Assembly: GCA_030550555.1 (NCBI GenBank)
Contig: JAUQPD010000019.1
Location: 1-34,808, forward strand
Direction of reading: 5' to 3'
Length of the DNA stretch: 34,808 nt
Source: Thermodesulfobacteriota bacterium
Lineage (GTDB): Bacteria > Desulfobacterota > Thermodesulfobacteria > Thermodesulfobacteriales > Thermodesulfobacteriaceae
Shown: positions 9,886 through 16,780 of the stretch, one piece after another
Layout of the letters: every line of letters starts with the position of its first letter
Position numbering within the stretch: the stretch's first letter is position 1
Program-made: the position numbers and the translations under genes
The notes under the pieces: generated by a model
The model's database searches: none
The model's input: only the letters and a program-made list of their open reading frames with translations
What the model was told of the DNA's origin: nothing

Positions 9886-10082
9886 TTTGGTCAAATTTGT
9901 GCAATAGTTGTAGAGTTTGGACAAAATTGAACATGATTGTACACTTGAAAGAGTTGTATCACTTGGGGTGAACTTAAGAACAGGGCAATTTTGGAGGGGA
10001 ATAGCTAATTTTGAAGAACCTGCTTTCAGAATTGGTATATTTTTTGAAAAGGGATAATTAAAGTTTGAAGAGGAGGTTAGAG

Positions 10083-11417
10083 ATGGTTGAAAAGCCAAGA
10101 GATTCCAAGGATGTGTTGGAATTGGTCAAGAAGTATGATGTTCGTTTTGTGAGGTTTTGGTTTGTTGACATTCTTGGGCAGTTGAAAAGTTTTGCGGTTC
10201 ATGTGGACGAACTAGAGACTGCCTTTGAAGAGGGAATGGGATTTGATGGGTCATCAATTAAGGGTTTTGCTCGGATTGACGAGTCTGACATGATAGCAAT
10301 TCCTGACCCAACAACTTTCGTTATTCTTCCTTGGAGACCAAAAGAGAAGGCTGTTGCCAGGATGTTCTGCGATATCTACAATCCTGATGGGACACCCTAT
10401 CAGGGAGATCCCAGGTATGCTCTCAAAAGGGCTCTTGAAAAGATGAAAGCTATGGGATTTACCAACTTTTATGTTGGGCCAGAATTAGAGTTTTTCTATT
10501 TTAAATCTGACAAGGCTCCTGAGATACTTGATGAGGGAGGATATTTTGATTATCCCATGGACGCAGCAGAAGATCTAAGAAGAGAGACCATTCTTGCACT
10601 TGAATCTATGGGGATAAGAGTTGAATACTCTCATCATGAAGTAGCACCATCTCAACATGAAATTGATCTCCGATATGCTGATGCCTTAGAAATGGCTGAC
10701 ATAGTTATGACATATAAAGTGACAGTTAAAGAAGTTGCTAGGAAGTATGGAGTTTACGCTACATTTATGCCTAAACCTATTTATGGTGTTAATGGAAGTG
10801 GTATGCATACTCATCAAAGTCTTTTTATTGGTAACAAAAATGCCTTCTTTGATCCCAATGACCCCTTCCATTTATCAGATATTGCTAAGCATTACACTGC
10901 TGGACTTCTCAAGCATATAAAAGAAATCACCTTAGTTTTGAATCAGTGGGTCAATTCTTATAAACGTCTTGTCCCTGGTTATGAGGCCCCAGTTTACATC
11001 TGCTGGGCAAGAAGGAATCGTTCCGCACTCATTAGAATCCCTATGTATAAACCTGGAAAGGAGAAGGCTACCCGTATTGAGCTCAGATCTCCAGATCCTG
11101 GTTGCAATCCCTACCTCGCCTTTGCCTGTATGCTTACAGCAGGATTAAAGGGAATTGAGAGAAAATATCCCCTCCCTGATCCTGTTGAGCAAGATGTTTA
11201 TCACATGTGCCCAACTGATAGAGCCAAACTTGGTATTGAGGAGCTTCCAGGTAGTCTCATTGAAGCCATTGAACATGCAGAAAAGAGCGAGATCTTGAGA
11301 GAGGCCCTTGGTGATCACATCTTTGAACAACTAATTATAAACAAAAAAATGGAGTGGGATGACTATAGAGTAAGGGTTACGGAGTACGAAATTCATAGAT
11401 ATCTACCTATATTGTAG
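10083..11417 (+). CDS. glnA: Glutamine synthetase, class I-alpha
   Basis: ATP-dependent amidation of glutamate with ammonia, the entry point of ammonium assimilation. I chose the ATG at 10083 (444 residues), which has an AGGAGG 6 nt upstream. Signatures include FDGSSIKGF, the metal-site GPELEFFYF, NGSGMHTHQSLF and RNRSALIRIP. At about 440 residues and without the insertion and Tyr loop of the beta class, it belongs to GSI-alpha, which is normally controlled by feedback and regulatory proteins rather than by adenylylation. The Arg in KGFARIDESDM matches the position used for feedback inhibition in Bacillus. It is divergent from a NifA-like activator. A strong hairpin follows the stop, and nadE follows that. 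Confidence 0.97.
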   Translation: MVEKPRDSKDVLELVKKYDVRFVRFWFVDILGQLKSFAVHVDELETAFEEGMGFDGSSIKGFARIDESDMIAIPDPTTFVILPWRPKEKAVARMFCDIYNPDGTPYQGDPRYALKRALEKMKAMGFTNFYVGPELEFFYFKSDKAPEILDEGGYFDYPMDAAEDLRRETILALESMGIRVEYSHHEVAPSQHEIDLRYADALEMADIVMTYKVTVKEVARKYGVYATFMPKPIYGVNGSGMHTHQSLFIGNKNAFFDPNDPFHLSDIAKHYTAGLLKHIKEITLVLNQWVNSYKRLVPGYEAPVYICWARRNRSALIRIPMYKPGKEKATRIELRSPDPGCNPYLAFACMLTAGLKGIERKYPLPDPVEQDVYHMCPTDRAKLGIEELPGSLIEAIEHAEKSEILREALGDHIFEQLIINKKMEWDDYRVRVTEYEIHRYLPIL

Positions 11418-11427
11418 AAACTAAAGA

Positions 11428-11455
11428 CTCCCCATCCTATGAGATGGATGGGGAG
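11428..11455 (+). promoter_or_regulatory. Perfect 10-bp hairpin between glnA and nadE overlapping the nadE ribosome binding site
   Basis: CTCCCCATCC (11428-11437) pairs perfectly with GGATGGGGAG (11446-11455) around an 8-nt loop. No T-run follows, so it is not a standard intrinsic terminator. The 3' arm contains the first bases of the purine-rich GGGGAGGGAG (11450-11459) that serves as nadE ribosome binding site. The folded RNA would partly hide that site, and may also stabilise the 3' end of glnA mRNA. Confidence 0.6.
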
Positions 11456-11468
11456 GGAGTGTTAGTTT

Positions 11469-13160
11469 ATGAGATATCTTAATATCGCTCTTTCCCAAAT
11501 TAATCCTACTTTGGGGGATTTTAAGCAAAATCTTTCTAGAATTTTGGATTTTATTAGAAGAGTAGGAGAGAGGGCTCACCTTGTGGTATTTCCAGAGCTT
11601 GCTCTTCCTGGCTATCCAGCACATGATCTTCTCCTAAGAAGAGACTTTCTCTATGAAGTCAAAACTGCCTTAAGTGACCTTCAAGACGCTACCAAAGATT
11701 TTGATTCAGTTATCCTTCTTGGCCTTCCCTTCTACAAAGAGGATGGCCTTTATAACAGCGTGGTCTCACTACATAAAGGAAAAATTATTGGAATTTGCCA
11801 TAAAAGATACCTCTCTCGATGGGGAGCATTTGGTGAAGAGAGATATTTTAGGATGGGAGATGGTTTACTATTTTTGGATGTAAATGGCATTTCTTGTGGG
11901 GTGACTTTTTGGGAAGATTTATGGATGCCTTCAGCGATTAATAATAAGTATAAAACATTGATTGCTATTGGGGTCTTGCCATATGAAATTGGTGGATATA
12001 ATGCAAGAGAAAATTTGCTTAAAGCTCGAGCTTTAGAAACCCAGGCCTATGTGGTATATGTCAATATGGTTGGGGGGCAAGATGATTTGGTTTTTGATGG
12101 GAGATCACTGGTTATTTCACCCCAGGGCAAGATCATAGCTAGAGCTAAGGCTTTTGAGGAAGACCTTCTTATTGTAAGCTTACCAATGGAGCCTCTAGAG
12201 AGTTTAAGATTACTCGAGCCACGCTTAAGGGAGGAATCAAGAGTGGAAGATATAGAAACGATTACCATTCACTTGAGAGGGGAGCCCCCATATTTTGAGG
12301 GAAGAATTGAGGCGAACCTTGAAGGGGAGGCGGAGATCTATTCAGCCCTAAAACTTTCCCTCTCGGACTATGTGAGGAAAAATGGTTTTAAAGGGGTTAT
12401 CTTGGGTCTATCGGGTGGTATTGATTCTGCTCTGGTTGCAACCCTTGCGGTTGATACCCTTGGGAGGGAGAGAGTTAAGGCCCTTTTTATGCCAAGTGAG
12501 TTTACCTCTCGGGAGTCCTATGAGGATGCAAAAAGGCTTTCTGAAAACCTTGGAATTGAACTTCTTGAACTACCTATCTTGCAAATATTTAAATGCTACC
12601 GTGATGAGTTAGCCCAAAGGCTTCACTGTTGGGATTTTACAGTGGCGGATGAAAATCTTCAGGCAAGAATTAGGGCAAATCTCCTTTTTTATCTCTCCAA
12701 CCGAGAGGGCTATCTTGTGCTCTCTACTTCTAATAAAAGTGAGTCTGCGACTGGTTATGGGACCATCTATGGCGACATTGCTGGTGGCTTTGCCCCTCTA
12801 AAAGATGTATACAAAACCTGGGTTTATAGGCTTGCCAGATATCGCAACTCTCTAAGCCCTGTAATTCCTGAACGCATACTCCTTAAGGCTCCCTCTGCTG
12901 AGCTTAGGCCAGGTCAAACTGATCAAGAGACACTTCCCCCTTATGACCTTTTGGATGAGATCTTGCAACTTCACCTGGAAGAGGGGATGACCCCTCAGGA
13001 GATTATTGAAAGGGGCTTTGAAGCAGAGACAGTCTACAAAGTTATGAAGATGGTTAAGTCCGCTGAATACAAACGAAGACAGGCCCCAGTTGGTCCAAAG
13101 ATTACAAAAAGGGCCTTTGGAACAGATATTTACCTTCCCCTAACCTGCGGTTTCCTATGA
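11469..13160 (+). CDS. nadE: Two-domain NAD+ synthetase with a probably inactive glutaminase domain
   Basis: 563 residues: an N-terminal nitrilase-type glutaminase domain (about 1-260) fused to a C-terminal NAD synthetase domain. The latter has the ATP-pyrophosphatase loop LGLSGGIDSA near residue 315, STSNKSE, GDIAGGFAPLKDVYK and PSAELRPGQTDQ. It adenylates and amidates nicotinate adenine dinucleotide to NAD+. In the glutaminase triad, E43 (FPELALPGYP) and K112 (HKRYL) are present, but the catalytic Cys of the usual CEDLW motif is W148 (FWEDLW). The codon at 11910-11912 is TGG. The usual LPNYGVFDE loop reads LSRWGAFGE. The enzyme probably uses free ammonia, which would fit its position next to glnA. 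The ribosome binding site overlaps the hairpin described at 11428-11455. Confidence 0.95.
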   Translation: MRYLNIALSQINPTLGDFKQNLSRILDFIRRVGERAHLVVFPELALPGYPAHDLLLRRDFLYEVKTALSDLQDATKDFDSVILLGLPFYKEDGLYNSVVSLHKGKIIGICHKRYLSRWGAFGEERYFRMGDGLLFLDVNGISCGVTFWEDLWMPSAINNKYKTLIAIGVLPYEIGGYNARENLLKARALETQAYVVYVNMVGGQDDLVFDGRSLVISPQGKIIARAKAFEEDLLIVSLPMEPLESLRLLEPRLREESRVEDIETITIHLRGEPPYFEGRIEANLEGEAEIYSALKLSLSDYVRKNGFKGVILGLSGGIDSALVATLAVDTLGRERVKALFMPSEFTSRESYEDAKRLSENLGIELLELPILQIFKCYRDELAQRLHCWDFTVADENLQARIRANLLFYLSNREGYLVLSTSNKSESATGYGTIYGDIAGGFAPLKDVYKTWVYRLARYRNSLSPVIPERILLKAPSAELRPGQTDQETLPPYDLLDEILQLHLEEGMTPQEIIERGFEAETVYKVMKMVKSAEYKRRQAPVGPKITKRAFGTDIYLPLTCGFL

Positions 13161-13356: not shown

Positions 13357-14880
13357 ATGTCTACACCTATTTTTGCAAATTTTCATCCTGATTTTTATGT
13401 CGAGAGACTTTGGGATAAGTGCATCAAATGTAAACGCTGTATAAGGGAATGCACCTATGGAGTCCATATTTGGGATGAGAAAAAAAAGACTCTTAAGGAG
13501 GACCACACTAAATGTGTGGGGTGTCACCGTTGTTCCGCAATGTGCCCCACAAATGCTTTGATTATTCGCAGGCATCCTTCAGATTTTAGGGAACATGCCC
13601 TTTGGACTCCGTGGTTCATTAAAAATATATACAAGCAAGCTGATCAAGGGGGAGTGCTTTTAACCTCAACAGGCTGTGCTCTGCCCTACAAGAATTACTT
13701 TGATCACTTAGTAATAGATGCCTGTCAGGTCACTAATCCGCCGATAGATCCGTTAAGAGAGCCCATGGAACTTAGGACCTTCATTGGGCCTAAGCCTGAA
13801 GCTGTAGAAGTAGAAGAAGTGAATGGGCGATTTAGACTCAAGAAAAAATTACCTCCTGTTATAAGGATAGAAGTTCCCATAATGTTTGCGGGGATGTCCT
13901 ATGGAGCAATAAGTCTTCATGTGCACCAGGGATTAGCTCGAGCTGCAAGGGATCTTGGAACTCTTTACAATACAGGTGAAGGTGGGCTCCATGCATCCCT
14001 TTACGAATATGGAGCAAACACCATTGTTCAATGTGCCTCAGGACGATTTGGACTTCATATTGATTATCTTAACGCAGGGGTAGCTATAGAGATAAAGATT
14101 GGGCAAGGTGCAAAGCCTGGCATTGGTGGACATCTGCCTGGAGAAAAGGTGACTGAAGAGATTTCAAAGACCAGGATGATTCCTGTTGGAAGTGACGCTC
14201 TGTCTCCAGCTCCTCACCATGATATCTATTCCATTGAGGATTTAAGAGGACTTATTTTTGCTCTAAAGGAGGCAACAGAATACAAAAAATTAGTCTTTGT
14301 TAAGATTGCAGCGGTTCACAATGTAGCTGCTATTGCATCTGGCATTGTTAGGGCTGGTGCTGATGCGGTAGTGATAGATGGGTTAAAAGGGGGAACTGGT
14401 GCATCTCCTACTATGTTTAGAGACAATATTGGTATTCCTATAGAGCTTGCGATTTCAGCGGTAGATAAGAGGCTTAGAGAGGAGGGTATACGCCACAGAA
14501 CAAGCATTATTGCCTCTGGTGGGATTCGCTGTAGTGCAGATGTCGTAAAGGCCATAGCTCTTGGGGCGGATGCGGTCTATATTGGCACTGCTGCGCTTAT
14601 TGCCTGTGGATGTACTATGTGTCAGAGATGCCATACAGGTAAATGTCCCTGGGGTATTGCCACTAACAATCCTGAGCTGATGAAGAGACTCCCTCCAGAG
14701 GTTGCCTATGAGAAGATTTACAATCTCGTAAAAGGTTGGGCCCATGAGATCAAGGAAATGCTTGGAGCAATGGGTATCAATTCAATCGAAAGTCTCAAGG
14801 GAAATAGAGACAAATTGCGAGCAGTGGGTCTAACCAGGGAAGAAATGGAAATCTTAGAAGTAAAACATGCTGGGGAGTAG
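13357..14880 (+). CDS. Glutamate synthase, archaeal-type central FMN/Fe-S subunit
   Basis: 507 residues. The N-terminus has a ferredoxin-like pair of [4Fe-4S] motifs (CIKCKRCIREC and CVGCHRCSAMC, about residues 22-70), followed by the FMN-binding TIM-barrel glutamate synthase domain. Signatures are MFAGMSYGAIS, the GQGAKPGIGGHLPG loop, IDGLKGGTGASP and the GADAVYIGTAAL stretch. CGCTMCQRCHTGKC near residue 418 is the [3Fe-4S] cluster site. It reduces the 2-oxoglutarate/ammonia adduct to glutamate. In archaea and some thermophiles GltB is split into three proteins, and here the other two parts follow directly. An AAAGGAGG ribosome binding site lies 11 nt before the ATG. The electron donor subunit GltD is not in the window, and the ferredoxin domain suggests ferredoxin or an unlinked partner. 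Confidence 0.94.
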   Translation: MSTPIFANFHPDFYVERLWDKCIKCKRCIRECTYGVHIWDEKKKTLKEDHTKCVGCHRCSAMCPTNALIIRRHPSDFREHALWTPWFIKNIYKQADQGGVLLTSTGCALPYKNYFDHLVIDACQVTNPPIDPLREPMELRTFIGPKPEAVEVEEVNGRFRLKKKLPPVIRIEVPIMFAGMSYGAISLHVHQGLARAARDLGTLYNTGEGGLHASLYEYGANTIVQCASGRFGLHIDYLNAGVAIEIKIGQGAKPGIGGHLPGEKVTEEISKTRMIPVGSDALSPAPHHDIYSIEDLRGLIFALKEATEYKKLVFVKIAAVHNVAAIASGIVRAGADAVVIDGLKGGTGASPTMFRDNIGIPIELAISAVDKRLREEGIRHRTSIIASGGIRCSADVVKAIALGADAVYIGTAALIACGCTMCQRCHTGKCPWGIATNNPELMKRLPPEVAYEKIYNLVKGWAHEIKEMLGAMGINSIESLKGNRDKLRAVGLTREEMEILEVKHAGE

Positions 14881-14886
14881 AGTCCT

Positions 14887-16086
14887 ATGTGGAATATCTA
14901 TTTGAGAGCAAAGGAAATTTCAGGCTGTGGGATATCAGGTATCATTCACAGGAAGGGAGAGTTAATTCCTGGAGAAATGATCATTAAATCAATCTGTTGT
15001 CAGTATGAGCGTGGAAATGGGCTTGGTGCTGGGTTTGCTGCCTATGGTATCTATCCAGAATTCAAAGATTTCTACGCTTTGCATGTCATGGGCCAATGTA
15101 GGGAATCCCTTGAAAGGGTAGAGGAATTTCTTCACAAGAGGACCTATGTTAGCTTTCAGGAACCTATACCAACAAGGAGAGTAAAAACAATCAAGAATCC
15201 TCCTCTTTTTAAGAGATACTTTGTCCGACCCAAATTTGAGGGGGAGATTGTTGAGGCAGAAGATGGGCAGTCTGAGGATGATTTCATGGTAAATCTTGTT
15301 ATGGAAATAAATGAGAAGATTTCCGGAGCCTATGTTATCTCTTCTGGCAAGAACATGGGTGTTTTTAAGGGTGTAGGATTTCCCGATGAAATTGCGGAGT
15401 TTTTCAGAATTGATGAATATCAGGCTTACATATGGACAGCCCATAACAGGTTCCCCACAAACACACCTGGTTGGTGGGGTGGAGCCCATCCTTTCACTCT
15501 ACTTGATTGGTCTATAGTTCACAATGGTGAGATCTCAAGTTATGGAACAAATAAGAGATATTTAGAACTCTTTGGCTATAAATGTACACTTCTCACAGAT
15601 ACGGAGGTTGTAGCTTATATTTTGGATCTCCTAATTCGCAGACATGGACTTCCTTTGGAGCTTGCCTGTAAGGTGATGGCACCACCATTTTGGATTGAAA
15701 TTGATGAAATGGATGAGGAAGATAGAGAACTCTACACAGCTCTTCGGATGGTTTATGGAGGGGCGGTCCTGAATGGACCTTTTGCGATCCTTTTTGCCTA
15801 TAATGGAGGCCTTGTGGGATTGAATGACCGAGTTAAGCTAAGACCTCTTGTTGTTGCCAACAAGGGTGACCTCTATGTGATGGGGTCTGAGGAGGCAGCA
15901 ATAAGGACTATTCTTCCTGATCCAGAGAGGGTTTGGGCTCCCAAGGCAGGTGAGCCTGTAATAGTGGAAATGGAAGAAGCCACCATACCCAATCAAAAAA
16001 GTTATCTAAAAGTGAGACCCAAGGAGGAAAGAGAGGATGCCCTTAGAATTGGAAGTTACCCCCTTTCACTATTCACAAGTAAATAA
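14887..16086 (+). CDS. Glutamate synthase, class II glutamine amidotransferase subunit
   Basis: 399 residues homologous to the amidotransferase domain of GltB. The catalytic nucleophile is C14 in SGCGISGII, so the first 13 residues (MWNIYLRAKEISG) must be removed to expose an N-terminal Cys, as for large bacterial GltB. No start codon lies directly before that Cys. AHNRFPTNTPGWWGGAHPF, IVHNGEISSYG and LLTDTEVVAYILD are typical substrate-binding segments. The protein releases ammonia from glutamine for the FMN subunit. The gene starts 6 bp after that subunit's stop, with a GGGGAG ribosome binding site, and its 3' end overlaps the next gene by 50 bp. Confidence 0.93.
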   Translation: MWNIYLRAKEISGCGISGIIHRKGELIPGEMIIKSICCQYERGNGLGAGFAAYGIYPEFKDFYALHVMGQCRESLERVEEFLHKRTYVSFQEPIPTRRVKTIKNPPLFKRYFVRPKFEGEIVEAEDGQSEDDFMVNLVMEINEKISGAYVISSGKNMGVFKGVGFPDEIAEFFRIDEYQAYIWTAHNRFPTNTPGWWGGAHPFTLLDWSIVHNGEISSYGTNKRYLELFGYKCTLLTDTEVVAYILDLLIRRHGLPLELACKVMAPPFWIEIDEMDEEDRELYTALRMVYGGAVLNGPFAILFAYNGGLVGLNDRVKLRPLVVANKGDLYVMGSEEAAIRTILPDPERVWAPKAGEPVIVEMEEATIPNQKSYLKVRPKEEREDALRIGSYPLSLFTSK

Positions 16087-16780
16087 GATAATTAGAGAAC
16101 ACATCAGCAAAGGAGAGAGGGAATTCGTTCTTCGGGGAGTTAACGGACATCGCTATCTTTTTGCAGGGGTCTCTGCAGAGGTTTCTGCTGTGATTTATGG
16201 GACTCCTGGCCTTGATCTTGGAGCCTTTATGAGGGGGCCTGTTATAAGGGTCTTTGGAAGTGTCCAAGATGGAGCAGGAAACACCATGGATCACGGGAAA
16301 ATAATTGTTCATGGAATGGCAGGCGATGTGATTGGCTATGCAATGAGAGGCGGAAAAATTCATATTTTCGGCGACGTAGGATATCGAGTCGGTATCCATA
16401 TGAAGGCCTATATGGACAAAGTCCCAGTAATCATTATTGGTGGTAAAGCAGGGGACTTTCTTGGTGAATACATGGCAGGTGGGATAATCATCCTCCTTGG
16501 TATGAATACTATATATCCTGAGCGTCCGATAGCTGGTCTATTTTTAGGCACAGGTATGCATGGTGGAGCAATCTATATTAGAGGTAAAGTCAGAGAGAAT
16601 CAACTTGGGCTTGGCTTAAAACCTTATGCCCTAGATAGTGACGACGAAAAGCTTTTAGAAAGCTACCTTAAAGAATACTGCGATGACTTTGGACTAGACA
16701 TTTCAGAAATCCTCAAGGAAGACTTCATAAAGATCATCCCCTATACCCACAGACCGTATGGTAAACTCTATGCCTACTGA
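16037..16780 (+). CDS. Glutamate synthase, GXGXG-domain subunit
   Basis: 247 residues. From about residue 60 to 200 the protein shows the repeated Gly-rich beta-helix of the GltB C-terminal domain (GTPGLDLGAFMRGP, GSVQDGAGNTMDHG, GMAGDVIGYAMRGG, GGKAGDFLGEYMAGG, GTGMHGGAIYIRG). The domain is structural and helps connect the amidotransferase and FMN domains and the ammonia tunnel. The ATG at 16037 has an AAGGAGG 9 nt upstream and lies inside the preceding gene, so translation is likely coupled. The C-terminal 50 residues are helical and acidic. Its last bases overlap the 3' end of a decayed gene on the other strand. Confidence 0.92.
   Translation: MPLELEVTPFHYSQVNKIIREHISKGEREFVLRGVNGHRYLFAGVSAEVSAVIYGTPGLDLGAFMRGPVIRVFGSVQDGAGNTMDHGKIIVHGMAGDVIGYAMRGGKIHIFGDVGYRVGIHMKAYMDKVPVIIIGGKAGDFLGEYMAGGIIILLGMNTIYPERPIAGLFLGTGMHGGAIYIRGKVRENQLGLGLKPYALDSDDEKLLESYLKEYCDDFGLDISEILKEDFIKIIPYTHRPYGKLYAY

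Follow-up and report, generated by a model that had tools for sequence, protein, structure and literature searches.

The nadE locus

The window analysed here is a 34,808-nucleotide stretch of DNA from a Thermodesulfobacteriota genome (G000), and all of its genes described below lie on the forward strand. It carries a nadE gene (11469..13160) encoding a two-domain NAD+ synthetase of 563 aa, recognized from its open reading frame, NCBIfam, Pfam and a structure model. The protein scores 647.9 bits against NCBIfam NF010588 (NadE-Gln, type F), above the cut-off of 479, and Pfam places a CN_hydrolase domain at residues 6-247 and an NAD_synthase domain at residues 291-539. AlphaFold2 yielded a confident two-domain model (pLDDT 89.4, pTM 0.91) that matches PDB 3n05 over 519 residues (Z 41.1, 2.0 Å). 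The N-terminal, nitrilase-like glutaminase domain (residues 1-280; 11469..12308) retains its fold in the model and is predicted to be catalytically dead, on the grounds of C148W and the loss of seven near-invariant residues. The C-terminal synthetase domain (residues 285-563; 12321..13157) is conserved and keeps its SGGIDS loop, its substrate-site motifs and a C-terminal extension. This extended loop is a type F feature that touches the glutaminase domain in NadE-Gln (PMC3376133); residues 533-563 of the window protein align with it in intact relatives, and the model has low pLDDT at residues 551-563.

Directly upstream, after a gap of 51 bases, lies glnA (10065..11417), a glutamine synthetase gene identified by its open reading frame and by 89-93% identity to same-genus genes. 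An earlier note on this DNA had described the adjacency correctly and had read it as an argument for a switch of nitrogen donor. This argument does not hold, because nadE also lies beside glnA in G005 and G006, where the CEDIW site is intact. Downstream of nadE are three glutamate-synthase-like genes (13357..16780), called from open reading frames and named by sequence recognition; we take them to encode an FMN/ferredoxin part, a class II glutaminase part and a GXGXG part. The trio is conserved with nadE in the window's genus.

The interval between glnA and nadE has features of its own. A strong GC hairpin at 11428-11455 (-25.7 kcal/mol for 61 nt, z -5.7) may be a glnA terminator that has lost its T run; hairpins also follow glnA in G002, G005 and G006, and in G005 a T run comes after it. 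In G023 and G045, the gene order is a sigma-54-type regulator, glnB, amt, a porin-like gene and nadE, with glnA upstream in G023, where the regulator-glnB-amt segment is still whole (L145 8116-11658). Between glnA and nadE, G002 has an amt fragment (L131 2771-3781), G006 an apparent truncated regulator (L136 5100-5270) and G017 an apparent relic, seen by eye and without a Pfam match (L141 4795-5022). These pieces are apparent remnants of the regulator-glnB-amt segment.

The glutaminase active site

The nucleophile position of the window NadE is occupied by Trp148 (TGG, 11910..11912), as placed by alignment and by phmmer against 5kha, 4f4h and 3n05, and this residue is the counterpart of Cys176 in M. 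tuberculosis NadE and Cys175 in the human enzyme. The motif reads F147-W148-E149-D150-L151-W152, and intact relatives have C-E-D-(I/L)-W. In our alignment of two-domain enzymes, Cys fills this column in 100 of 109 rows and the window has Trp. The catalytic Glu43 (GAG, 11595..11597) and Lys112 (AAA, 11802..11804) are retained, leaving an incomplete Cys-Glu-Lys triad, and the second Glu, E123, is also kept. In these respects the alignment agrees with the earlier note, which had reported Trp in place of the catalytic Cys, an otherwise retained triad and a neighbouring loop altered to LSRWGAFGE. Four near-invariant residues of that loop, which follows Lys112 (11814..11837), are changed (P116S, Y118W, V120A and D122G). 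Its counterpart in the M. tuberculosis enzyme, the 'YRE loop', couples both active sites (PMC6946656). The conserved SPYxxGK segment (11976..11996) is altered in the window as well, with S170L and K176G. Following M. tuberculosis NadE, we take this segment to lie by the glutamine site, with S170 and K176 as putative glutamine-binding residues.

Near-invariant residues were defined as those at least 93% conserved in 217 Cys-containing homologues, which gives 44 positions in the glutaminase domain (G domain). Besides the Cys, the window NadE has changed at 7 of the other 43 (P51A, P116S, Y118W, V120A, D122G, S170L and K176G); in the synthetase domain the figure is 6 of 73. Intact homologues depart from the 44 at 1.1 positions on average (95th percentile 3). 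In the structure model the nucleophile elbow is nevertheless formed, with a strand at 141-147 and a helix at 148-152. From model and sequence together, the glutaminase domain is predicted to fold around a broken catalytic site.

Parallel losses in the family and the phylum

Within the window's genus, the Cys is intact in G001, G002, G005 and G006, G003 lacks Glu, Lys and Cys alike, and in G004 nadE runs into a contig end. The G002 protein combines an intact Cys with E123K, a change of the second Glu to Lys that is possibly an earlier step of decay. Genus g6 spans a wider range: the site is intact in G017, G023, G044 and G045, reads GWDCW in G011, G013, G019 and G022, and is absent from G015, G021 and G024, whose NadE consists of the synthetase only (256-266 aa), with a fragment of such a protein in G043. 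The single-domain NadE of G015, G021 and G024 sits at the same glnA locus and is the end state of the loss series. Furthermore, the glutaminase domain of G007 (genus g2) has wholly decayed. The family therefore holds at least five site losses (the Trp of the window, the GWDCW clade, two wholly decayed domains and the single-domain replacement), and the rpoB tree of the relatives requires five changes.

The losses differ in how far decay has gone. On the rpoB topology, the G domain is strongly accelerated in G003 and G007, with a G/S branch ratio of about 6, and along the stem of the GWDCW clade (1.21 versus 0.32); the window has a ratio of 2.8, and the intact range is 1.1-3.4. Strong relaxation of the window's own G domain was thus rejected, its ratio lying within the intact range. 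Given this ordinary ratio, the window loss looks recent and looks like an early stage of decay, unlike those of G003 and G007.

Beyond the family, a set of 129 further genes drawn from the phylum includes 11 without the Cys (8 Gly, 1 Ser, 1 His and 1 Asp); the set consists of better-scoring matches and gives no unbiased rate. All 11 keep Lys112, and Glu43 is kept wherever the row is complete. The Cys-less protein is the only NadE found in G054, G142, G185, G100, G199 and G224; in G149 a further G-domain piece lies close to a contig end, and G178 has another NadE that is distant. G064, G171 and G229 each carry an intact and a Cys-to-Gly two-domain NadE, which could divide glutamine and ammonia use between them. 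Outside the phylum, the sole NadE of a Nitrospira genome has Gly at this position. On a synthetase-domain tree of 236 rows, at least eight separate changes are needed, all forced by well-supported branches.

The same residues tend to disappear with the Cys. Of 15 Cys-less representatives, 14 have lost Y118, 13 P116, 12 K176, 11 V120, and 9 each S170 and W152; Glu43, Lys112 and Glu123 are each missing from only 2. The window sequence fits this co-loss pattern. Judged from the aligned genes, the Cys loss is not unique to the window gene and is one of many parallel losses; the repeated death of the predicted glutaminase site in fused NadE goes beyond the single case described in the earlier note.

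Nitrogen donor and the retained domain

The window's genome is rated 100% complete and has a single NadE; a search of the whole genome found no second, compensating NadE, and a plasmid search returned only distant NadE matches. Since NadA and NadD are also present, the de novo route leads to NaAD, which must be amidated by the window enzyme. In vitro, previously characterised two-domain NadE enzymes work with either glutamine or free ammonia (PMC3376133), and in human NADSYN1 the C175Y substitution, likewise from Cys to an aromatic residue, almost abolishes glutamine activity and leaves ammonia-dependent activity near wild type (PMC10866660). The sole NadE, its intact synthetase domain and these precedents speak strongly for an ammonia-dependent enzyme, and by sequence and analogy free ammonia is the most likely nitrogen source of the window NadE. 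That the glutaminase is disabled and ammonia is the donor, as the earlier note had proposed, is also the best reading of the co-losses and of the repeated losses, and glutamine-dependent activity is probably absent.

The genome has no amt gene for an ammonium transporter, which fits an ammonium-rich life. As a cause of the Cys loss, a missing Amt was rejected: G017 and G044, with intact sites, also lack Amt, and the GWDCW clade has it.

We propose that the nitrilase-like domain of the window NadE is a pseudoenzyme. Having no Cys nucleophile, and with its loop and putative glutamine-binding residues altered, it would form no glutamyl-thioester; the synthetase domain would adenylate NaAD and then amidate it with free cytosolic ammonia. 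The dead domain would stay as a folded part, most likely supporting assembly or stability of the synthetase domain and possibly serving regulation. Taken as a whole, with a pseudo-glutaminase, ammonia as donor and a dead domain retained as a scaffold with a possible regulatory function, we consider this explanation highly probable.

Retention of the domain is best approached through the GWDCW clade, whose synonymous divergence can be measured; synonymous sites of the window gene are saturated in pairwise comparison. In that clade, dN/dS is 0.14-0.19 in the dead domain and 0.05-0.09 in the synthetase domain of the same genes, and intact glutaminase domains have 0.07-0.12. The dead domains of this clade are relaxed yet clearly under purifying selection, as would suit a scaffold or a regulatory element. 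The simplest reading is a structural role, and a role in regulation or ammonia access is possible; for the window NadE itself, we infer the reason for retention.

The constraint on the dead domains could also mean that the former glutaminase has acquired a new positive role, as an ammonium vestibule for the inter-domain tunnel or as a docking or feedback site for PII or NAD. Glu43, Lys112 and Glu123 are each kept in 13 of the 15 Cys-less representatives, and the counterpart of Glu123 lines constriction 1 of the tunnel in M. tuberculosis NadE (PMC6946656). Additionally, NAD inhibition of dimeric NadE2-Gln is relieved by PII (PMC7196632), and in G023 and G045 nadE is preceded by glnB and amt. 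However, a plain structural role accounts for the same constraint, and Glu and Lys are lost as well in two lineages (G003 and G007), so that we regard a new role as rather unlikely. Its broader form, in which NadE proteins with a dead glutaminase and a retained fold make up a recurrent, selected class marked by parallel loss of Cys148, Tyr118, Pro116, Lys176 and Ser170, is put forward only tentatively. We are similarly doubtful that, in such a class, Glu43, Lys112 and Glu123 would be retained for the sake of an emptied pocket that acts as an ammonium entry and tunnel vestibule or as a regulatory site, and is no relic.

Residual catalysis is far less probable. The domain might still act as a glutaminase through another nucleophile, or as an altered amidase, given that Glu43 and Lys112 are kept and C143 is near, and an altered hydrolase is remotely conceivable with Glu43, Lys112 and Glu123 all in place. 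In the model, however, C143 is part of the strand that precedes the elbow, and relatives carry Ile, Val, Phe or other residues at this position; C143 is not shared by the sister losses, and the putative glutamine-binding S170 and K176 are gone too. The earlier note had already judged C143 to be off the motif, and nothing suggests that it replaces C148.

It is slightly less plausible still that another nitrilase-like protein hydrolyses glutamine in trans and feeds the window NadE, although a two-subunit NadE is known in Thermus (PMC3376133). The genome encodes two other CN_hydrolase proteins. One is an Lnt-like membrane protein; the other (L007 1456-2682, G000:C42) joins a nitrilase domain whose Cys is apparently intact to a cytidylyltransferase-like domain. 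The cytidylyltransferase-like half of this fusion resembles the heptose-phosphate adenylyltransferase half of HldE, and CN_hydrolase proteins of similar length are found throughout the family. Neither protein is a free-standing glutaminase subunit, and both have counterparts in intact relatives; similar CN_hydrolase proteins of about 400-440 aa in relatives with an intact NadE argue against a replacement, and the docking face is still taken by the fused dead domain.

A misread or misassembled Cys codon can be practically dismissed: TGG is one transversion from TGT or TGC, but the frame is open across 563 codons, relatives show the same kind of loss, and of the seven further near-invariant residues that are changed several, such as Tyr to Trp and Lys to Gly, are two base substitutions away from the codons normally found, more than a single read error can explain.

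The pseudo-glutaminase NadE proposed here stands between known types. With NadE-Gln of type F (3n05, 4f4h, 5kha, 3dla and 6ofb), it shares the domain order, the fold, the synthetase motifs, the C-terminal extension and the triad Glu and Lys, but it lacks the nucleophilic Cys and neighbouring site residues and is predicted to be incapable of using glutamine. Its predicted donor, free ammonia, is that of single-domain NadE-NH3 (type N), from which it differs in keeping an N-terminal domain that is predicted to fold and the extension that touches it. The same Cys is replaced in human NADSYN1 C175Y and M. tuberculosis NadE C176A; whereas these are a disease allele and a laboratory mutant, the window has the replacement as the natural state of its only NadE, with further site residues gone. 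The literature searched, mostly open-access papers, gave no description of a natural two-domain NadE with a dead glutaminase, which is not proof of novelty.

The patchwork of donors across NadE has been explained by horizontal transfer and gene loss in the reference study (PMC3376133). A catalytic site that dies first, and repeatedly, in an otherwise complete enzyme would be the missing intermediate toward ammonia-dependent NadE, and the sequences most likely record a recurrent shift of NAD synthesis from glutamine to ammonia. Two-domain NadE proteins are annotated as glutamine-dependent from architecture alone, and a residue signature (C148, Y118, P116, K176 and S170) would predict the nitrogen donor. 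Natural pseudo-glutaminases also offer material for measuring the non-catalytic job of the domain. Furthermore, they bear on the old question of free ammonia for NAD synthetase in vivo, since genomes with only a dead-site NadE appear to need it.
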